Positions 777-17,589 of a DNA stretch of 24,167 nucleotides are shown piece by piece (position 1 is the stretch's first letter; each line of letters begins with the position of its first letter). Origin of the DNA: a virus. The stretch spans positions 1-24,167 of the IMG/VR virus record IMGVR_UViG_3300047552_002588; one strand, 5' to 3'. The translations under genes and the position numbers were made by a program. The notes under the pieces are model-generated. The model saw only the letters and a list, made by a program, of their open reading frames with translations. It was not told where the DNA came from and did not search any database.

Positions 777-1532
777 ATGAGTAAAAAAAATTGTTATTAT
801 GTGTATTTTCTTCTAGATACTAGAAGAAAACAAAAATTTATTTTTAGGAATTTTGAGTTTGATTATGTTCCATTTTATGTAGGGAAGGGAAAAAATTATA
901 GATATGCTGATCATTTTCAATATTCAACTCTTTCAAAGGAAAATAATAGAAAAGCAACAAAAATTAAAAGCATAATAAATGAAACAAATAAAAATCCAGA
1001 AGTTGTTATTGTTTACAAAAATTTATCTAATGAAGATGCTTTAAAAATTGAAAGTGATTTAATTTCCGAACTAAAAAGAATAGAAGATGGTGGGATACTA
1101 ACAAATACAACATTAGGTGGAGAAAATCCACCCGCTCTCTTTGGTGAAAATAACGGTTTCTTTAAAAGACACCATACAGAAGAATCTAAAAAAATAATGA
1201 GTTTAAAGAAATTAGGTAAGAAATTAAATAAAAATCATATTGAAAAACTTAAGCAATCACATATGGGTGCAAAGAATGGTTTTTTTGGAAAAAAACATTC
1301 AAAAGAAACTAAACTATTAATGAGTAAAATAAAAAAAGAAAAGAAAAAGAAACAATATATACTTTCATTAACTGATGGTAAAGAATTAATCGTTGAAAAC
1401 TTAAAGCAATTTTGTATTGACAATGGTTATACCTATAGTTGTATATGTAATCTAGTAGCTAAAAGAATAAAAAAATGTTATGGGTTTATATCGGCAAAAA
1501 TAAAACCCCCTGAGAATTCTCAAGGGGTTTGA
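777..1532 (+). CDS. GIY-YIG homing endonuclease with NUMOD3 repeats (Seg/I-TevI-like)
   Basis: A free-standing 251-aa homing endonuclease that would nick or cut a related phage genome and promote its own copying by recombination. The GIY-YIG core shows YYVYF (residues 7-11) and FYVGKG (33-38), arginines just after it (42), a glutamate around 92 and the LTNTTLGGEN segment near 108-116. Two NUMOD3 DNA-binding repeats follow, NGFFKRHHTEESKKIMS (about 126-142) and NGFFGKKHSKETKLLMS (about 167-183). A lysine-rich stretch and a C-terminal NUMOD1-like helix-turn-helix (about 195-240) complete it. It lies tail-to-tail with gene 32, the position occupied by segG (32.1) in T4. Its last codons overlap the hairpin that ends the gene 32 transcript. 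A late promoter precedes it. Confidence 0.88.
   Translation: MSKKNCYYVYFLLDTRRKQKFIFRNFEFDYVPFYVGKGKNYRYADHFQYSTLSKENNRKATKIKSIINETNKNPEVVIVYKNLSNEDALKIESDLISELKRIEDGGILTNTTLGGENPPALFGENNGFFKRHHTEESKKIMSLKKLGKKLNKNHIEKLKQSHMGAKNGFFGKKHSKETKLLMSKIKKEKKKKQYILSLTDGKELIVENLKQFCIDNGYTYSCICNLVAKRIKKCYGFISAKIKPPENSQGV
1503..1530 (-). terminator. Rho-independent terminator of the gene 32 transcript, overlapping the endonuclease 3' end
   Basis: The hairpin pairs AAACCCC (1503-1509) with GGGGTTT (1524-1530) and TGAG (1511-1514) with CTCA (1519-1522) around an AATT loop, with one mismatch. On the minus strand it is followed by TTTTATTTTT, an ideal U-tract, only about 20 bases past the gene 32 stop. The plus-strand tail (GATTTGTTTA) is weaker, so it may act in both directions. 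Confidence 0.8.
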
Positions 1533-1550
1533 TTTGTTTAATTTAAGTTT

Positions 1551-2516
1551 TCACTTAAACAATTCGTCATCAGAAAGGCTATCAAGATCTATGCCAGCGT
1601 CTTCTTCCTTAGCTGGTTCGTCCTCGACTTCAGCGGTTGCTGCTTTTGGTTTTGTAACTGGTTTAGGAGCAGCACTTGTTGTTTGTGCTTTAGGTGTTGC
1701 TGGGGTTGGTTCTGAAGGTGTTTCTACCGCACCACTGTCTTGTTCAGAACCTTCGGCTGATCCCCCAGATTCACCAGTTGGTGTATCAAGTAATTTCTTG
1801 AGATCTTCGTAACCACGGAGGCGACCAGCGACTTTCTCTTGAAGATTGTGGATTTGTCCATGAATAACATCAAGATCGTCTTCACTACCAATAGCAGATG
1901 CAGCAGAACTAAAGTGACTTGATTCGTAGTTATTGAACTCACCCTTCTTCTTAATAACTAAGTTGAAGTTATAACCTTCAAATGGATCAAAGAATGGAAG
2001 TTTCTGATCGAAGAAAGCATCCTTAAACTTCTCAAAGATTTGAGGACCAACTTCCCAAACAAGAACCTTACCAGTTTGATCTTCTTCGGTTCCCTTGCGA
2101 GGATCATCTACAACAAGCACATTTACATAGTAACGAGGTTTGCGGTTGTATGCTCTAGCTAAATCTTCTTCAGCCTTTGATGCAGAACCAGCATTTACTT
2201 TGGTCCAATATGTGCGAGCTTTTTCACAAATTGGGCACTTATGTTCCTTGCCATTTGTAGTTGGGCAAATGGTATAGACTCTCTTTCCATTGCTTCTAGT
2301 ATAAATGTGAGCGAAAGCCTCAAACCAAGGTTCGTCCAAACCATCATTTATATGGACATTTGGTAATACCCTAAGAACATAGTTTACTTTTGGTTTATTT
2401 GAAGGAAGTGTTGGATTAAATTTCCAACTGTTGTCATATGACTGACCTTCATCCTTCTCTTTTATTTTGCTAACAACCTCGTTGTAGCGTTCTTTTACTG
2501 ACTTGAATTTACTCAT
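1551..2516 (-). CDS. 32: Single-stranded DNA-binding protein gp32
   Basis: The T4 gp32 homologue (321 aa; T4 has 301) coats single-stranded DNA during replication, recombination and repair and coordinates UvsX/UvsY, helicase and polymerase. The structural zinc site is visible as His70, Cys84, Cys94 and Cys97 (CPTTNGKEHKCPIC), matching the T4 spacing H-x12-C-x9-C-x2-C within one residue. The OB-fold region includes YYVNVLVVDDPRKG and VLVWEVGPQIFEKF. A long Ser/Gly/Pro/Ala/Thr-rich linker (about 245-300) leads to an acidic tail ending DSLSDDELFK, the usual protein-interaction end. The N-terminal basic region (KFKSVKERYNEVVSKIKEK) fits the cooperative-binding domain. The ATG at 2516 has a GAAAGGAAAC ribosome site. 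A terminator follows at once. Confidence 0.95.
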   Translation of the reverse strand: MSKFKSVKERYNEVVSKIKEKDEGQSYDNSWKFNPTLPSNKPKVNYVLRVLPNVHINDGLDEPWFEAFAHIYTRSNGKRVYTICPTTNGKEHKCPICEKARTYWTKVNAGSASKAEEDLARAYNRKPRYYVNVLVVDDPRKGTEEDQTGKVLVWEVGPQIFEKFKDAFFDQKLPFFDPFEGYNFNLVIKKKGEFNNYESSHFSSAASAIGSEDDLDVIHGQIHNLQEKVAGRLRGYEDLKKLLDTPTGESGGSAEGSEQDSGAVETPSEPTPATPKAQTTSAAPKPVTKPKAATAEVEDEPAKEEDAGIDLDSLSDDELFK

Positions 2517-2555
2517 AGATGTTTCCTTTCGTTTTCTATTCGTTTGCTTTTGTGT

Positions 2556-2583
2556 ATTGTAGCAGAGCTAATTAATGTTGCAA
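2556..2583 (-). promoter_or_regulatory. Sigma70-like promoter for gene 32
   Basis: On the minus strand TTGCAA (2578-2583) and TACAAT (2556-2561) are separated by 16 bases, placing the start about 33 bases before the gene 32 ATG. A TTGGACA heptamer (2584-2590) abuts the -35. The same heptamer abuts the -10 in the uvsX and 9298 promoters. Confidence 0.5.
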
Positions 2584-2601
2584 TGTCCAAGAAATTTGGA
2601 T

Positions 2602-2880
2602 TTAGAATTTGCATTTTCCGTATCGTTGAATTGCGTCTTTTTTTAATAGGTCTTTAAACTCTTTATTAAGTTTATCTACTGCCTCCCTTTCCGACATACC
2701 AAAGAAATCTTTTAAACCAACAACACAGTCCCAAATATTTATATTCTGTTCGTATACCATTTTTTTAACTATTTTATTGTATATCTTTTTTACTTCAAGA
2801 TGTGCCTTATTCGGAGTCATACCGCATTTTTTACCTAACTCGTCATATGTCAAAGGTTTAGAAACTGATTTATAATTCAT
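2602..2880 (-). CDS. Small helix-turn-helix protein, sigma70 region 4-like (possible gp33-type late coactivator)
   Basis: A 92-aa basic protein between genes 41 and 32, starting three bases after the gene 41 stop and so probably co-translated. Its N-terminal half, LTYDELGKKCGMTPNKAH followed by LEVKKIYNKIV, resembles the sigma70 region 4 helix-turn-helix (LTxxEIGxxLGxTxxxVxxIExxAxxKL). The C-terminal half has a second helical segment with FFGMSEREAVDKLNKEF. In T4 the small gene 33, whose product binds the RNA polymerase beta-flap and stands in for sigma region 4, lies close upstream of 32 (33-59-32). Position, size and the sigma-4 look suggest a gp33-like role, but I cannot align it to T4 gp33. 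An independent DNA-binding regulator is the alternative. Confidence 0.5.
   Translation of the reverse strand: MNYKSVSKPLTYDELGKKCGMTPNKAHLEVKKIYNKIVKKMVYEQNINIWDCVVGLKDFFGMSEREAVDKLNKEFKDLLKKDAIQRYGKCKF
2736..2743 (-). promoter_or_regulatory. Possible internal late promoter for gene 32
   Basis: An exact TATAAATA on the minus strand lies inside the small HTH gene, 220 bases before the gene 32 start. T4 gene 32 is also expressed late. The octamer falls in AT-rich codons (Asn-Ile-Asn-Ile), so chance occurrence is quite possible. Confidence 0.3.
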
Positions 2881-2883
2881 AGA

Positions 2884-4305
2884 TTATTCCTTCTCATCAA
2901 AATCTGATAATATATCATCGTCCCCATTTGATGATGGGGGTTGTTGTGCCTTTGATTCATTAAACTTTTTTATGTTTTCTTTTGTTTTTTCTTGTCTTGC
3001 ATTTCCAGAGGCATCAATGAAGTCATTAATTCTCATATGCTCATAATCAACTTGAACAAGGAACCCAGAACCGTTCTTGCTAAATCTAGATTTTGCTACA
3101 TGATAATAAAGTTGATTATTGGCTGCTAAGTCTTCGGTTCTGCTAACCATAATCATAACATCTGCTGTCATTGGAATACCCATCGAATCAGATGTTTTCT
3201 CAAGTCCTATTTCTGATTCTTCATAACCAGAACGATTAACTTGAACCGCACTAAGTATAGGTACATTTAATTTGACTGCGACCGCTCTAAGTTCCTCTGC
3301 AACAGTCTTTAACTTACCATAAGTATTATCACTAAAAGCTTTACCATTTGGAATCATTAATCCAAGATAGTCAACCATTATAAAGTCTGGTTTAAACCCA
3401 TTTCTTTTTACTTGAAGATCCTTAACAAGTGCCAAAAGTTGATTTGCACTCATTGAGGCGGGTGGGTATTCTTTAATTATTAATCTACCAAATGGTTGTC
3501 CAGAAGCTTCTGCGAGTCTCTTCTTATCAAGCAAATCTTGCATTAATCTATCGGGATTCATTGAAAGATCTGCCATGTTGATACCAGTTAAGTTAGCATC
3601 AATTCTATTAGCAAGAATGTCTTCATTAATTTCAAGCGACACATAAAGACCATTCAAACCTTGCTCAATGAGTTTCTTAGCAGCATCACCAAGAATAAGA
3701 GTCTTACCAACATTGGTTGCTGCTCCGAAGATACCAAGCATCTTCCTTCTCCAACCACCACCAATATGTTCATCAAGTGAAGGAGTGCCAGTTTTAATAA
3801 CTTGTTCTGGCGACTTCATTCTTTCAACACGTTGGGCGATATCTTCAAAATAATCCAATCCAAGAGATTCATCAAAATTTACATGAGAAGCATCAATTAC
3901 CTTTTTAATAGCTTCGTTTCTTTTACCAGCTTCCATTAAATTAACACATTCAACAAGTGCCAACTCAATTCTTTTTTGTTGAATAAACTCTTTAGTTATT
4001 TCATTTAACCAATCAAAATAATCTTCTTTCTCAAATTTTATAAGAGAAGCGGAGGTTACAACTTCAATACAAGGTTGTAAATGCTCCGCTTTCTTTAAGA
4101 TATTTGGTATTTCAGTATCACAAAGGATTTGAACCGAAGGTTTCTTGTGATGTTTCACGTAAAATTGTTGGACCGCTCTAACGACTACCGCAGCCGCTTT
4201 AGAGAAAAATTTATAATCAATTTTATCTATAAAACGAGTGAGATAATCATCAAAACTGATTAACCCTTTTATAATATAAAGTTCTGTTCTATCGTCAATC
4301 TGCAT
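2884..4305 (-). CDS. 41: Replicative DNA helicase gp41 (DnaB/RecA-fold)
   Basis: A 473-aa homologue of T4 gp41 (475 aa), the hexameric 5'-3' helicase that unwinds DNA at the fork and works with primase. The C-terminal RecA-like domain shows Walker A GAATNVGKT (194-202), DnaB motif 1a YVSLEIN (221-227), and Walker B DFIMVDYLGLM with Asp312. Next come ILSAVQVNRSG and the downstream VDYEHMRINDF segment. The N-terminal 150 residues form the usual helical domain (TELYIIKGLISFDDYL). The ATG at 4305 has a GAAGGAG ribosome site and its own promoter. Unlike T4, no gene 59 (helicase loader) lies between 41 and 32. Confidence 0.95.
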   Translation of the reverse strand: MQIDDRTELYIIKGLISFDDYLTRFIDKIDYKFFSKAAAVVVRAVQQFYVKHHKKPSVQILCDTEIPNILKKAEHLQPCIEVVTSASLIKFEKEDYFDWLNEITKEFIQQKRIELALVECVNLMEAGKRNEAIKKVIDASHVNFDESLGLDYFEDIAQRVERMKSPEQVIKTGTPSLDEHIGGGWRRKMLGIFGAATNVGKTLILGDAAKKLIEQGLNGLYVSLEINEDILANRIDANLTGINMADLSMNPDRLMQDLLDKKRLAEASGQPFGRLIIKEYPPASMSANQLLALVKDLQVKRNGFKPDFIMVDYLGLMIPNGKAFSDNTYGKLKTVAEELRAVAVKLNVPILSAVQVNRSGYEESEIGLEKTSDSMGIPMTADVMIMVSRTEDLAANNQLYYHVAKSRFSKNGSGFLVQVDYEHMRINDFIDASGNARQEKTKENIKKFNESKAQQPPSSNGDDDILSDFDEKE

Positions 4306-12118: not shown

Positions 12119-13922
12119 AATAGAATTTATAGATGTTTCAATAAAAAACTTTATGTCCTTTGGCAATGCTGAAGTGACTTTTGATTACTTAAAAGGTATC
12201 AATGTTGTAACTGGTAAAGTTGAGAATTCATCATCAAGAAACGGTGTAGGTAAATCAACTTTACTTGTTGATTCGCTTTCGTTTGCTCTTTATGGTAAAG
12301 TTTTAAGGGGTGGTAAAGTTGTCCTTGGTGAAATGATTAATAAGATCAATAAAAAAGACTGTGTAGTTACTACTAGACTTAGGATAGATGGTGAATTAAT
12401 TAAAGTAGTTAGATCAATTAAACCAAATGATCTTAAAATATATGTTGGTGAACAACAAGAATTAAAGAAGTTTGATGCAAATGGTAGAAACCAAGAGTGG
12501 CTTGAAAAGAAACTTGGAGTCAATCATACTTGCTTTAATAACATTATTATTCTTAATGTTAACTCTTCTGTTCCATTCCTTGATATGGAAGCACAAAAGA
12601 AAAGAGAAGTTATTGAGAATATTCTTTCTTCCGCTATCTATGGAAGGATGGCAGTATTGGCTAAAGATCGCCATCTTGATCTTAAAACTGCTCTCAAACA
12701 AGAAGAGGTTGCTTTCCAGTTAATCAATAAGCAATATGAAACTTCAAAGGTCACTCTTGCTAAACATCAAGAAACTATTAATCAACTTCAAGTTGAAAAA
12801 GATGCTAATTTAAGTAAACTTAACGGTGAATTAGAAAAACTTAAAAATAAATTAGAGAATTTAAAGAAGTCATTAGTTGACAAGAATCATGATTCAGAGA
12901 AAGTTGAACTTGAAAAATCTATTAAAGGGTTTGAATTAACTATTAATGACTTAAGATCATCTATCAAGATTCATCAAAACGACATCACTAAGGCAAAGGA
13001 AGCGTTGAGTCACATTGAAAATGTTCCCCATTGTCCAACTTGCCACACCCCTTCAGATAATCCATATATTCAGTCTTATATCACAACTCTAAGAAAAGAG
13101 GTTAGCGATAAGGAAGAAAACATTAATGTTGCTAAGAAGCAAGGAGCAGCTCTTGTTAAAGGTAAAGAAGAAACCGAAAACAAACTTAAAAGTATTAAAG
13201 AAGAAATAGAAAATCAAAATAAAGTTAAAGAAGAAATTAGAATTGCTAACTTAAACATCACTCATAAAGAGGCAGAAATCAAGAAAGAGCAAGACAGAAA
13301 AATTCAACATGGTGGAGTATCCCAAGAAGAAGTTAACGAACTTGAACAGAAAGTCAAAGAACATCAAGTTAAACTTGATACGGTTTCAAAGGAATTCCAG
13401 CACTACGAAGTAGTCCGTCAGATACTTTCAGAGGAAGGTCTTCGTAAGTTCGTTGTTTCAAGAATTCTTCCTATTCTCAATAGCAAAGTTAACGAATATC
13501 TTAAGATAATGGGTTCGGAATATACTCTTGTATTCAATATGAATCTTGAGGAAAAGATTCTTTCAAGAAACCGCGAAGAAAGACCTTATAACTCTTTCTC
13601 AAGCGGCGAAAAGAAGAGATTAGACTTAAGTGTTCTTTTGGCACTTATGGATATCTCAAGAATGCAAAATTCAGTTGAGACAAACTTACTCGTTCTTGAT
13701 GAGGTTCTTGATACTTCTATGGATTCAGATGGAGTTGAAAACTTTCTTGAATTCCTCAAGACGGGATTTAAGAAAGCATATCCAGATAAGTGTATCTATA
13801 TAATTACCCATCGTAAGGAAATTGCTGGTGAGAGTTTTGATCGACTTATCAATTTAGTAAAGAAAAATAACTTTACCGAAATTGCTTCTATTGTTGATAT
13901 GACCCACCCTGAGTCTGCTTAA
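12111..13922 (+). CDS. 46: Recombination endonuclease ATPase subunit gp46 (Rad50/SbcC-like)
   Basis: A 603-aa SMC-like ATPase (T4 gp46 is 560 aa) that controls the gp47 nuclease. N-terminal Walker A is SSRNGVGKST (41-50). Two coiled-coil arms flank a zinc-hook CPTC (about 307-310) that joins two molecules. The ABC signature SSGEKKRLDLS lies near 496-506 and Walker B with D-loop, LLVLDEVLDTSMD, near 525. A His in IYIITHRKE follows. The gene overlaps 47 by eight bases, so the two subunits are coupled. Its 3' end overlaps the convergent large late gene by 35 bases, leaving no room for a terminator in between. Confidence 0.95.
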   Translation: MAKIEFIDVSIKNFMSFGNAEVTFDYLKGINVVTGKVENSSSRNGVGKSTLLVDSLSFALYGKVLRGGKVVLGEMINKINKKDCVVTTRLRIDGELIKVVRSIKPNDLKIYVGEQQELKKFDANGRNQEWLEKKLGVNHTCFNNIIILNVNSSVPFLDMEAQKKREVIENILSSAIYGRMAVLAKDRHLDLKTALKQEEVAFQLINKQYETSKVTLAKHQETINQLQVEKDANLSKLNGELEKLKNKLENLKKSLVDKNHDSEKVELEKSIKGFELTINDLRSSIKIHQNDITKAKEALSHIENVPHCPTCHTPSDNPYIQSYITTLRKEVSDKEENINVAKKQGAALVKGKEETENKLKSIKEEIENQNKVKEEIRIANLNITHKEAEIKKEQDRKIQHGGVSQEEVNELEQKVKEHQVKLDTVSKEFQHYEVVRQILSEEGLRKFVVSRILPILNSKVNEYLKIMGSEYTLVFNMNLEEKILSRNREERPYNSFSSGEKKRLDLSVLLALMDISRMQNSVETNLLVLDEVLDTSMDSDGVENFLEFLKTGFKKAYPDKCIYIITHRKEIAGESFDRLINLVKKNNFTEIASIVDMTHPESA

Positions 13923-16164
13923 TTAGAGTAACACATTTCTGTTGAGCATAAACAATAGCAGTTCCATAAAACTTATCTAAACTCTTTTCCCATTGTGGAT
14001 CAAGTTGCTTAGAATCAATCATAAAATCTTTCAAAACACTGTATTCATCAATAAAGTGTCTAGTTAAATCAAATGTCTTATCTAACTTTATTCTTTCAAT
14101 AAGTTTATAATCAATTTCATCTGTAGAAACTGATTTACTGTAGAAATTAAGAATACTTGCAAAACTTTCAATAATCTCTTTATATTGCATTATGAGTTTT
14201 GGATATTGAAGATTCTTTTGAATTAATTTATCAATTAAGAATGTTCTTCTAAAAATTCTATTTACAGACCATAACTTTCTTCTTCTTTCATCCTTTAAAT
14301 CAGTTGATAATTTCTTACATAAATCATCAAGTTCATCATCAATAACAATTTTATAAGGATTAAAAGTAACTTCAGCACGAGGTCTTCCTCTTGCTTCATC
14401 TAATCCCGCTCGACGAGTTTGACTTTCAACTAACTTGAAGACACCAAAACTATCATTTGATTCATCAGTAAGTTGAAGTAGGAATTGTTTAAGATCAAGA
14501 CTTGGTTTTCTGCCCTTCTTAACCTCTCCTTTTCTCTTAGCAACTCTATCGTAGTATGTAGCAACATTTGCTGGATCACTCATATCAAGAACTGAAACAT
14601 ATATCTTTCTTGCTCTAATATACTCAGAGATAAGAGTACTGTAAACTTTAATATCCTTTTTTGACTTTGAAATCGTTACGAGGGTTGAATCTTCGTGACC
14701 ATGAGCATAAAGATCAAGCATAGCAAACATAAATTGGACAAGTTTATCATTATTGGACTTTTCAATACTCATAAAGTATTTTTTCATATTCTCCATAATG
14801 GCATCGGAGTCACCAGAAGGGGCATAATGATCCCATTGAAGTTTCTTAAAGTCTAATCCACTGGCTTGAAATACCCATTCAATATCGTTTCTCCACTTAT
14901 CGTTGAATTGAATTATAGCAACATCTTTACGATCACTTGCTTTTAATGAGAAACTGTAAACTTTTTGATCAATAATGCCACTTCTATTCATAGCATTAAA
15001 CTCAATAACTTTTATTTCAGCATCTTTCTTGATGTTACCAGCAACACCACTTCCACCATGGGCTCCTAAAGAACCTGATGAACTTATAACTAAGTCAATG
15101 TAGTCAATTTCATTATTTGAAGCAAGGTACTCAAGGTACTTTCTAGCCTCTTCAATATCTGGAATTGCCATTATATTTTCAAGATAAGTTTCTATCATTC
15201 TAATCATATCATCAAGTTTCTCACCTCTTTCAGTAATAACTTGAGCAATATCTGAAATTAAATCCTCAGAATAATTTACATTTAAAGCAATTCGGATACT
15301 ATCGTTACTGTCTTCTATTTTGAATGCAACTTTTTTATGTTCAATTTCTTCATTTATAGTTTCTTGAGGGACTATAACGAACCTTATAGCAACAGAAACA
15401 CCTCCACGACCTTGTTTAATGACTTTTGAATCAGCAAATGCTAATTCTTGAGCAGATACTTCATTTGCTAATCCTCTGGATCTTTCTCTAAGCCACTTTA
15501 AGGCATCAGTTTCTTTTTGACCCTCTGAAGCATGTTGTTTTGAACGATAAAGATGTGCAAAGTAATAGATAGTAAACTTATCAGTTACTTCTTTACCTTC
15601 AAATTTAAATTTACTATTATCTTCTGAATCTTTATATTGAATGAAATGTTGTAAAATTTTACTTTTTAAAGAAGTTACTTCTGATTCAATACCAATATCT
15701 TTAAAAAGTTCCTCTGATTTAGTATCAGAATACTCTTTAATAGATTTTTCAGAAGGAACTTTTTTAGTTTCTTTTTTTGCTGCTAATATTCTTGCTTTTA
15801 AGTCTTCACTCTTACTTAAAAATAAAGAACTTGCTTCATTAACTTCACTATCAAAAATTATAAACTTTCTCTCTTTAGTTACATTAATATGCTCAATTGC
15901 ATTTAAAATATCTTCAGTAGTTGTTTTATTAGTTACAAAATAATCACCTACACAAAGTGGAAAAATAAGTTCACTTAACTCACCCATAAAAGTTCTATGG
16001 GTCTTTAGTTTCTTATCGTCACTTTGAGTTTCTTGGTTACTTAAAGTATCTTGGTTAGTTGGAGTTTCTTCAGTAACCGCAAGAGGAGGAGTAACTTCTT
16101 TACCTAGAGCTAAGTTAAAGGTTTCTTTAATTAATTTCTGAAACTTATCTTTATGATTTGGCAT
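13888..16164 (-). CDS. Large late protein of unknown function (758 aa), possible nuclease-like core
   Basis: Not recognised. An upstream GTG at 16176 is possible, but the ATG at 16164 has a GTGGAA ribosome site and fits the late promoter better. Residues 1-55 are polar and disordered. GELSELIFPL (61-70) resembles the N-terminal helix of PD-(D/E)xK-type folds. The centre has IDYIDLVISSSGS (353-365), a glycine-rich loop, EIKVIEF (383-389) and YSFSLKAS (403-410). Together these look like a D...ExK...SLK arrangement, but the match is by eye only. The C-terminal half is helical and charged, with VKKGRKPSLDL and many Lys/Arg. An exact late promoter precedes it, so it is probably a virion or ejected protein. 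There is no signal peptide or membrane segment. Confidence 0.75.
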   Translation of the reverse strand: MPNHKDKFQKLIKETFNLALGKEVTPPLAVTEETPTNQDTLSNQETQSDDKKLKTHRTFMGELSELIFPLCVGDYFVTNKTTTEDILNAIEHINVTKERKFIIFDSEVNEASSLFLSKSEDLKARILAAKKETKKVPSEKSIKEYSDTKSEELFKDIGIESEVTSLKSKILQHFIQYKDSEDNSKFKFEGKEVTDKFTIYYFAHLYRSKQHASEGQKETDALKWLRERSRGLANEVSAQELAFADSKVIKQGRGGVSVAIRFVIVPQETINEEIEHKKVAFKIEDSNDSIRIALNVNYSEDLISDIAQVITERGEKLDDMIRMIETYLENIMAIPDIEEARKYLEYLASNNEIDYIDLVISSSGSLGAHGGSGVAGNIKKDAEIKVIEFNAMNRSGIIDQKVYSFSLKASDRKDVAIIQFNDKWRNDIEWVFQASGLDFKKLQWDHYAPSGDSDAIMENMKKYFMSIEKSNNDKLVQFMFAMLDLYAHGHEDSTLVTISKSKKDIKVYSTLISEYIRARKIYVSVLDMSDPANVATYYDRVAKRKGEVKKGRKPSLDLKQFLLQLTDESNDSFGVFKLVESQTRRAGLDEARGRPRAEVTFNPYKIVIDDELDDLCKKLSTDLKDERRRKLWSVNRIFRRTFLIDKLIQKNLQYPKLIMQYKEIIESFASILNFYSKSVSTDEIDYKLIERIKLDKTFDLTRHFIDEYSVLKDFMIDSKQLDPQWEKSLDKFYGTAIVYAQQKCVTLIKQTQGGSYQQ

Positions 16165-16184
16165 ATTTATTTCCACTTTTCACT

Positions 16185-16192
16185 TATTTATA
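16185..16192 (-). promoter_or_regulatory. T4-type late promoter (TATAAATA) for the 758-aa protein
   Basis: Exact octamer on the minus strand, 20 bases before the ATG at 16164. Its distance matches the plus-strand late promoters in the window and supports the ATG over the upstream GTG at 16176, which would leave almost no leader. Confidence 0.75.
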
Positions 16193-16278
16193 ACTTTAAG
16201 TAACTAAGGTACACAATATCTCTAAGTTGCGGAGTCTTTAAAAATTTAAGTGCCATATGTATGTAATTTTTGCTGCTA

Positions 16279-16430
16279 ATAACTTCGTGGCGGAAGTTAT
16301 CGTCAAAGCAATTTGTTGACTAGACCATTACTGGCGTAGTGTATCGTAAGTTTCTCCAAACTCCTACTCCTAGGCATATGGTTTACATAAACCATATATA
16401 CGACACCGTGGAATCCTTTTATATAAAGGA
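16279..16430. ncRNA. Candidate structured RNA element: hairpins and a four-way-junction cloverleaf
   Basis: This gene-free stretch holds exact inverted repeats. First hairpin: ATAACTTC/GAAGTTAT (16279-16300). A small one follows: CAAA-GCAA-TTTG (16304-16315). The cloverleaf is closed by 16339-16348 with 16399-16406 (8 pairs, two-base bulge). It encloses three arms: AGTTT-CTCC-AAACT (16349-16362), CCTA-CTCC-TAGG (16363-16374) and a 9-bp arm (16376-16397). Only two junction bases are unpaired. A further hairpin is TCCTTT/AAAGGA (16414-16430). It is not a tRNA: no seven-base loops, TTC loop or CCA. The strand is undecided. Minus would make it part of the uvsY-uvsW transcript tail, with GGAG loops. 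Plus gives CUCC loops and a GNRA (GCAA) tetraloop. Confidence 0.45.
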
Positions 16431-16470
16431 ATCTCCCGAAGGCTTAAAACTATTCAAAGTACTTTTACTT

Positions 16471-16487
16471 CTTCTTTGACTAAGAAG
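16471..16487 (+). terminator. Weak possible terminator hairpin at the end of the structured stretch
   Basis: CTTCTT (16471-16476) pairs with AAGAAG (16482-16487) around TGACT and is followed on the plus strand by GTTTTGATATTTA. The stem is AT-rich and the T-run broken, so efficiency is doubtful. If real, it would end a plus-strand RNA covering the hairpin cluster. The minus-strand tail is not T-rich. Confidence 0.25.
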
Positions 16488-16500
16488 GTTTTGATATTTA

Positions 16501-17589
16501 TCACATAACTCTAATCTCCAAAGGAACTCTAGTTCCATATTTTCTATTAACATCGGAAAAAATTAACGGACACCAAGTTTTCTCGGGTCCGTAGAAAGAA
16601 GCAGTAGTAGTTCTAAAGTATGGAAATCTATTTCTCCACTTAACAAATAACCTAGAACCATGTTCTAGGTATGAGTTTTGATGATCTGGTTTTACAAGAT
16701 TTTGCTGACCATCTGAAAGATGAGTACAATCCGCATCAACGGCAAAGTTTCTATAACCAGCAGATAAGGCATTTAAACATATATCGGCACCATAGAAATG
16801 ATAATGATCAAAAGTTTTTTCATCATATTTTATATTTAAATCTGATCGACATGCCATTATACATTCATCAAGTGTTTGTACTTCCTTAAATGAACCATGT
16901 TGTTGTCTCATCATATCTGCGAAAGTTATATTTCTTCCTGTTATTGATGCCGATGAATTTGAAAGGTAAATAGCACCATATTCAGTTGTGGGTGACTTAT
17001 TTAACTTACCAGTTCCAGCAATTCCTAAGAAACCAACTTTAAATTGTTTTTCTAGATTATCAAAAGACTGTTTAAATCTCTGTATCCAATATTTAGGTAC
17101 TAGTAAATCTTGATGGGTCAAGAAATAGTAATCACTATTAGCAAGACTCATTCCGAAATTTAAAGCCTGGGAGCAACTTTTAAATTCATTTTTGTGGTTA
17201 AAAACTGGAATTAACTGAAAAGTATAATCAGTTTCTTGTAACAAAAGGGTATTCAAAAAGTCTATGTAAGTCTTTTTGTCGTGAGTTAAAGTAATTATTG
17301 CGAAAGTAGTTTTATCCACTCGTTTTTTATAATCAGAAAACGGTTTTGATGTATCTAAACTATTAACCAACTGGATAGTAGATTCTACTTCTTTTCTATT
17401 TTGATCTAAAACATTCATTTGTAAATTCTCGATTTTATAATAATCTGGACTTTGAACCTCCGTTAGACCATTATACTGAAGTAATTCGTCTGGTCCAGAG
17501 ATAATCTGCCCTGGTTTGATAATTAATTTTTTCCCTTGGTAAATTACGGAGATTGAATATTTAGATCTATTTTGGAATTTCTTGGACAT
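16501..17589 (-). CDS. GT-A fold glycosyltransferase (family 2-like, StrF-type) with N-terminal beta domain
   Basis: A 362-aa protein. Residues about 93-300 form a GT2-like domain: TTFAIITLTHDKKTYIDF at the nucleotide-binding start, SQALNFGMSLANSDYYFLTH, then HQDLLVP (159-165), the HQD form of the DXD metal site seen in StrF-like GT2 proteins. Next come DECIMACRSDL (241-251) and HFYGADICLNALSAGY (264-279), typical acceptor-side motifs. The first ~50 residues (YSISVIYQGKKLIIKPGQII) look like a separate small beta module, as in some phage structural proteins. The gene overlaps the uvsW 3' end by 23 bases, so it is coupled to the recombination operon. Donor and acceptor are unknown; surface glycan, virion or DNA decoration are all possible. 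Confidence 0.8.
   Translation of the reverse strand: MSKKFQNRSKYSISVIYQGKKLIIKPGQIISGPDELLQYNGLTEVQSPDYYKIENLQMNVLDQNRKEVESTIQLVNSLDTSKPFSDYKKRVDKTTFAIITLTHDKKTYIDFLNTLLLQETDYTFQLIPVFNHKNEFKSCSQALNFGMSLANSDYYFLTHQDLLVPKYWIQRFKQSFDNLEKQFKVGFLGIAGTGKLNKSPTTEYGAIYLSNSSASITGRNITFADMMRQQHGSFKEVQTLDECIMACRSDLNIKYDEKTFDHYHFYGADICLNALSAGYRNFAVDADCTHLSDGQQNLVKPDHQNSYLEHGSRLFVKWRNRFPYFRTTTASFYGPEKTWCPLIFSDVNRKYGTRVPLEIRVM

Follow-up and report, generated by a model that had tools for sequence, protein, structure and literature searches.

A conserved structured RNA downstream of uvsY and uvsW in T4-like phages

Introduction

To our knowledge, only a small number of structured noncoding RNAs have been described in lytic phages, with almost nothing established about what they do; the main examples are GOLLD and ROOL, RNAs of about 600 to 800 nt that often lie near tRNAs. 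The translational operator of T4 gene 32 consists of an H-type pseudoknot and then an AU-rich single strand. GOLLD and ROOL are large, self-assembling phage RNAs of unknown function (PMC12286853). The lytic phage ICP1 produces abundant intergenic noncoding transcripts of about 800 and 300 nt that contain no ORF (PMC7567579), and CFrI, a cyanophage RNA antisense to psbA, is a structured RNA in T4-like phages (PMC9602691).

Here we describe an RNA of about 270 nt (about 230–290 nt) encoded on the minus strand of a 24,167-nucleotide stretch of viral DNA, which we call the window. This 24-kb fragment comes from an uncultivated T4-like phage and carries gp32-, gp41-, UvsX-, gp43-, gp55-, gp47-, and gp46-like genes. 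Like GOLLD and ROOL, the RNA is a phage-encoded, independent, multi-helix noncoding RNA with a pseudoknot and strong covariation. It differs from them in size, since members of those families exceed 500 nt, in having no tRNA nearby in the window, and in matching neither by sequence nor by family model. The ICP1 transcripts are likewise intergenic and ORF-less; they come from a different phage, and blastn of the phage collection shows no relative of the RNA described here. In contrast to CFrI, this RNA has no psbA among its neighboring genes and no Rfam match. As in the gene 32 operator, an AU-rich single strand comes after an H-type pseudoknot, again in a T4-like phage, but the RNA does not lie upstream of gene 32 (1551–2516, minus strand, in the window), and its pseudoknot precedes 180 nt of further conserved structure. 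With its compensatory changes and its position outside coding sequence on phage contigs, the RNA belongs to the known broad kind of phage-encoded structured noncoding RNAs, of which it is a new, smaller class.

Results

The locus and its homologues

The window carries a minus-strand run of genes for a UvsY-like protein, a 149-aa protein, UvsW, and a glycosyltransferase (362 aa; Pfam PF13712), followed by a gap and a gene for a 762-aa protein. The first-pass annotation had taken this gap (16177–16500) for the only gene-poor stretch above 300 bases; at 324 nt it is indeed the longest non-coding gap of the window, but the next, at 476–776, measures 301 nt. Elsewhere in the window, a free-standing GIY-YIG homing endonuclease with a NUMOD3 motif (777–1532, plus strand) adjoins the gp32-like gene. 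The 762-aa protein (13888–16176, minus strand) has no Pfam or PHROG match, and relatives of it were found only in the L004, L006, and L008 contigs (39–67% identity in the best tblastn segments).

Searches using the neighboring proteins found homologous contigs with the same gene order, and homologues of the RNA are present in three other uncultivated phages (L004, L006, and L029), making a family of four with the window. Their common locus reads uvsY, uvsW, glycosyltransferase, RNA, gp46. In L004, uvsW is 73% and the 762-aa protein 62% identical to that of the window, and the gap is clearly homologous along its whole length; in L006 (143.7-kb contig) the gap is homologous yet diverged, and L029 (214-kb contig) was retrieved by a glycosyltransferase alignment search. 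In all four phages the RNA comes immediately after the glycosyltransferase gene, and in three of them (window, L004, and L006) it precedes the 762-aa family. In L029 the RNA is followed by a convergent sbcC homologue, and no homologue of the 762-aa gene was found anywhere in the 214-kb contig.

Several other features of these loci were recorded. The glycosyltransferase gene downstream of uvsW ranges from 362 to 659 aa across phages (L025, L026, L027, and L029), with an extra N-terminal glycosyltransferase-like region in L026 and L029. A 21-nt near-perfect inverted repeat, ACCTAGAACCATGTTCTAGGT, lies within the glycosyltransferase coding sequence of the window (16650–16670) and scans as terminator-like on both strands. 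In L003, uvsW is apparently split by an intein-like insertion (920–3017), on both sides of which the uvsW reading resumes.

Further searches returned no known family. Rfam (4227 families), which the first-pass annotation had suggested consulting, gave no match at or above the gathering threshold for the window or for L003–L006, L025, L026, L028, and L029; the matches of a permissive scan were scattered and mutually inconsistent and were dismissed as chance. ARAGORN detected no tRNA or tmRNA in the window or the homologous loci. DNA searches of 50,697 phage records and 72,556 plasmid records found nothing related, a single match (E 0.9) being due to chance. Searching the phage collection with the 762-aa and 362-aa proteins found no relative, and a glycosyltransferase search of genome contigs returned generic glycosyltransferases only. 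A corrected TTCCTTTANNNNAAAAGGATTCNANRGT DNA pattern (one A fewer) matched 11 stretches, the true ones being those in the L004 and L006 contigs, while an CAACAAATTGCTTTGAC pattern found no new member: L034 is the L029 contig, and L031–L033 were rejected as chance matches in coding sequence.

Covariation supports a minus-strand RNA

The first-pass annotation had placed a cluster of hairpins at 16279–16487. All of them are present and fold better than dinucleotide shuffles, against which the z-scores given here were computed. On the minus strand, the 68-nt junction element reaches –23.6 kcal/mol (z –4.57, 0 of 200 shuffles as good), compared with –14.4 kcal/mol on the plus strand (z –3.08, 1 of 200 shuffles as good); for the 229-nt unit, the z-scores are –3.90 (minus) and –2.27 (plus).

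Covariation among aligned related loci, the check that had been proposed for this cluster, gave strong support to a structured phage RNA on the minus strand downstream of uvsY–uvsW. In a three-sequence alignment of the window, L004, and L029 (nine helices), 22 of 53 pairs changed on both sides and 99.4% of cells were paired; none of 500 shuffles matched this, and sliding the partner by 1–3 columns lowered pairing to 38–45%. A covariance model built from these three sequences found L006 out of sample (72 bits, E = 1.9e-16). With all four sequences, the tool alignment contained 28 pairs with double changes and 99.0% of cells paired. After the register of P3 (L029) and of P4/P5 (L006) was put right in a block-wise structural alignment, 210 of 211 helix cells (99.5%) were paired, with a compensatory double change at 33 of 55 pairs; this alignment was itself fitted to the structure, and it comprises only four sequences. 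The corresponding controls were 0 of 500 shuffles and 40–44% pairing when slid. We consider the covariation counts convincing because of these slid and shuffled controls and the out-of-sample match to L006, and the conserved secondary structure is near certain to be real. Each phage record containing the RNA has a single model match above chance.

The same alignment identifies the strand. When the 210 conserved paired cells are read on the minus strand, 16 are G–U and none is A–C; since G–U pairing is tolerated on one strand only, the RNA is the minus strand. At least four distantly related phages preserve the shape despite changes in its letters, so the phage evidently uses the RNA itself.

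Architecture of the RNA

As defined by the four-member alignment and the covariance model, the RNA spans 16487–16220 (minus strand), its 5′ end lying on the 16487 side; conservation reaches at least to 16220, and the 3′ limit is uncertain. At the 5′ end is a 34-nt H-type pseudoknot (16454–16487) whose two 6-bp stems, S1 (16487–16482 with 16473–16468) and S2 (16479–16474 with 16459–16454), are free of mismatches in every one of the four phages and show compensatory changes. S2, for example, reads UCAAAG/CUUUGA, UCAAUG/CAUUGA, CUAAUG/CAUUAG, and UCACUA/UAGUGA across the four. The loop dimensions are identical throughout, with an L1 of 2 nt, no L2, and an A-rich L3 of 8 nt. What had been described as a weak terminator-like hairpin at 16468–16487 is stem 1 of this pseudoknot, and our scan found no terminator-like hairpin there on either strand. 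The pseudoknot is followed by a conserved AU-rich linker (AUAUUUUUAAG-like) with a small variable hairpin, P2 (CC-UUCG-GG; 16435–16453 together), the latter absent in L029, and by hairpin P3 (UCCUUU/AAAGGA, with one CG-to-AU double change in L029) and a conserved UUCCAC (16414–16430).

The central element is a four-way junction in which two junction bases are left unpaired; two of its arms have loops reading GGAG on the minus strand (CTCC on the plus), as the first-pass annotation had noted. The cloverleaf that it placed at 16339–16406 exists, but the evolutionarily supported closing stem moves its limits to 16341–16406: this 8-bp stem, P4, pairs 16406–16399 with 16348–16341, is paired at 8 of 8 positions in all four phages, and has several pairs changed on both sides. 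It encloses arms 1–3. Arm 2 (16363–16374) has a 4-bp stem, reading CCUA-GGAG-UAGG in the window with stems CCCA/UGGG in L004 and UUCU/AGAA in L029; both sides of each of its four pairs change, yet the loop remains GGAG in these three members. Arm 3 (16349–16362), with a stem of 4–5 bp, likewise keeps GGAG in three of four. In L006, arm 2 reads CUGA-AGAG-UUAG and arm 3 has no GGA.

Hairpin P5 (16319–16340) follows, with an outer stem of 4 bp, a C·C mismatch, an inner stem of 4 bp, and a GNRA tetraloop (GUAA; GUGA in L029). Beyond it lie the single-stranded motif CAACAAAUUGCUUUGAC (16302–16318), identical in the window, L004, and L029, and hairpin P6 (UAACUU/AAGUUA) with a conserved UAACACGCA-like strand (16280–16299). 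The neighboring hairpins of the original cluster thus exist, but as parts of one RNA rather than separate elements, the "preceding" ones being P6 and P5 and the "following" ones P3 and P2. A 3′ element, CUCCGCAACUUAGAG (16220–16234), retains a GCAACUUAG-like core in all four phages (ACAACUUAG in L004), and this CAACUUAG element is preceded by CUCC (16234–16231) in the three members with GGAG loops. Inspection by eye did not show the motifs that define a kink-turn, a preQ1-like, or a pRNA-like element, and these readings were dropped. Short AAGTAACT-like repeats occur between the RNA and the next gene (window 16185–16205; L006 6840–7040; L025 6740–6827).

Promoter signals and the downstream gene

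A candidate T4-type late promoter, GATAAATA (16495–16502, minus strand), matches TATAAATA at 7 of 8 positions, overlaps the glycosyltransferase stop, and lies 7 nt upstream of P1. Equivalent 7/8 matches lie 6 nt before P1 in L004 and 2 nt before it in L006, and L029 instead has TTGAAG-17-TATAAT, 21 nt before P1. These matches are individually weak in AT-rich DNA (local frequency 0.016–0.057; late-type background about 0.05 per phage), and a promoter scan of these loci found no excess of promoter-like sites, so that GATAAATA is suggestive only as a late promoter of the RNA. Since each match is weak alone, we infer rather than demonstrate that the RNA has its own promoter. The late-promoter word TATAAATA occurs 7 times in the window (3.8 expected), 5 of the 7 copies lying just upstream of start codons. 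One of these copies (16185–16192), within TATAAATAAG (16183–16192, minus strand), comes after the RNA and just before the 762-aa start and is the likely late promoter of that gene.

In three members (window, L004, and L006), no more than about 15 nt separates a stop codon from the start of the RNA, which is located ahead of the same 762-aa family, so a role inside those mRNAs is possible. The RNA is not, however, always upstream of that gene. Because L029 carries the RNA with no such gene downstream or elsewhere, the RNA is not merely the leader of the 762-aa gene.

Structured gaps at sister loci

Different, apparently structured gaps occupy the same locus in L003 (4150–4435), L025 (6460–6760; L025/L030), and L026 (4476–4780). 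These begin with a second kind of H-type pseudoknot, in which the last four bases of the loop CUAAGUUAGUCY pair with the RGAC of a following RGACAGCAG. Fold z-scores were –3.2 for L025, –3.0 for L026, –1.0 for L003, and –0.3 for L028, and L026 has a promoter-like TTGAAT-17-TATAAT 7 nt upstream. Because the covariance model does not match L003, L025, L026, or L028 even at E up to 10, we do not claim the sister-locus RNAs as family members; they are possibly another new RNA class.

Discussion

To the observed structure, strand, locus, single copy per record, and independence from the downstream gene we add a functional reading, which as a whole we consider somewhat probable: a gene of its own at 16487–16220 (minus strand) encodes a noncoding RNA that acts in trans as a scaffold or decoy. 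A promoter where the glycosyltransferase gene ends would probably drive transcription; it would be of late type in three phages and sigma-70-like in the fourth. The transcript would open with the compact H-type pseudoknot and continue as a chain of hairpins around the four-way junction, which would present the two GGAG loops, with the GNRA hairpin besides. We infer that this stable RNA would work in trans, its junction loops docking onto a sequence-specific partner. Because the loops stay constant while the stem pairs change, selection on the loop letters is suggested, and the conserved GGAG loops are probably a docking site. They could contact the anti-Shine-Dalgarno of the 16S rRNA, a protein of the CsrA type, or the CUCC in the RNA's own 3′ element. 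The first of these is conceivable because GGAG/AGGA-type Shine-Dalgarno sequences predominate among the phage's own genes. A GGA-type partner in trans is a tentative proposal that we would not expect to hold in most outcomes.

Other readings account for part of this evidence. The GGAG loops might be structural, pairing with the RNA's own CUCC or that of a second copy and so folding or multimerizing the RNA, as GOLLD and ROOL assemble through kissing loops (PMC12286853). L006 lacks both the GGAG loops and the CUCC that the other three members share, which fits such pairing, but this is a single contrast, there are two loops for one CUCC, and the bases that follow CAACUUA can pair locally with the CUCC, an alternative hairpin that is clear in L029; we find this pairing possible but unlikely. 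A somewhat weaker prospect is that the RNA works in cis, forming a stable 3′ UTR for the uvsY–uvsW–glycosyltransferase operon, controlling the 762-aa gene as its leader, or both. Its constant position after the glycosyltransferase gene, and before the 762-aa family in three phages, is what this would predict. L029 speaks against it, as do the TATAAATA late promoter between the RNA and the 762-aa start and a fold far more elaborate than a terminator or 3′ stabilizer requires. The GGAG decoy proposed in the first-pass annotation would titrate CsrA/RsmA, the two loops being predicted to bind host CsrA. It is right about two GGA sites in short hairpin loops, about 13 nt apart and kept in three members with changing stems, but there are only two such loops and L006 has lost them, whereas many GGA-loop hairpins, kept in all members, would be expected of CsrB/RsmZ decoys. 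It also has no Rfam match of CsrB/RsmZ type and leaves unexplained the pseudoknot, the GNRA hairpin, and the conserved single-stranded motifs, domains foreign to those decoys; we judge it quite improbable.

Three further explanations are weaker still. The neighboring uvsY–uvsW genes recall the T4 origin oriF(uvsY), a promoter with an AT-rich unwinding element (PMC3016281), and the RNA could be an R-loop primer later unwound by UvsW. T4 R-loop formation is, however, independent of specific sequences (PMC3016281), whereas pairing is conserved here, the T4 oriF and oriG promoters are middle-mode rather than late-type or sigma-70-like, and there is no local GC-skew switch at 16.3 kb; an origin transcript is therefore very improbable. 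The 34-nt H-type pseudoknot likewise brings to mind type III antitoxin (ToxI-like) RNAs, and phage PhiTE evades ToxIN by a pseudo-ToxI RNA (PMC5449768). We hold such an identity to be highly implausible, as the pseudoknot is single, with no tandem array and one model match per record above chance, it is no better conserved than the remainder of the RNA, and pairing sequences vary freely. Two options raised in the first-pass annotation, a plus-strand anti-Shine-Dalgarno RNA and a DNA cruciform, draw on the CTCC loops of the plus strand and on the ability of inverted repeats to extrude. Both are now disfavored to the point of being barely credible: the 16 conserved G–U cells would read as A–C in a plus-strand RNA and would be mismatched in a cruciform, and the minus-strand fold is much stronger.

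A bolder version of the trans-acting reading is speculative, and we offer it as improbable but worth stating. The RNA could be a late-expressed, approximately 270-nt RNA machine of a new class, opened by a pseudoknot, whose two identical junction loops would bind its own 3′ CUCC or a host target to form an RNA or RNA–protein complex; the structured RNAs at the sister loci (L003, L025, and L026), unrelated in sequence but likewise opened by a pseudoknot, would then point to a general, fast-evolving RNA gene of the T4-like lineage.

With its small size, its constant position at a core locus of T4-like phages next to the recombination genes, and pair-by-pair support for its structure, the RNA should be easy to synthesize, probe, and delete. 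Were a relative brought into culture, the role of ornate phage RNAs would become directly testable.
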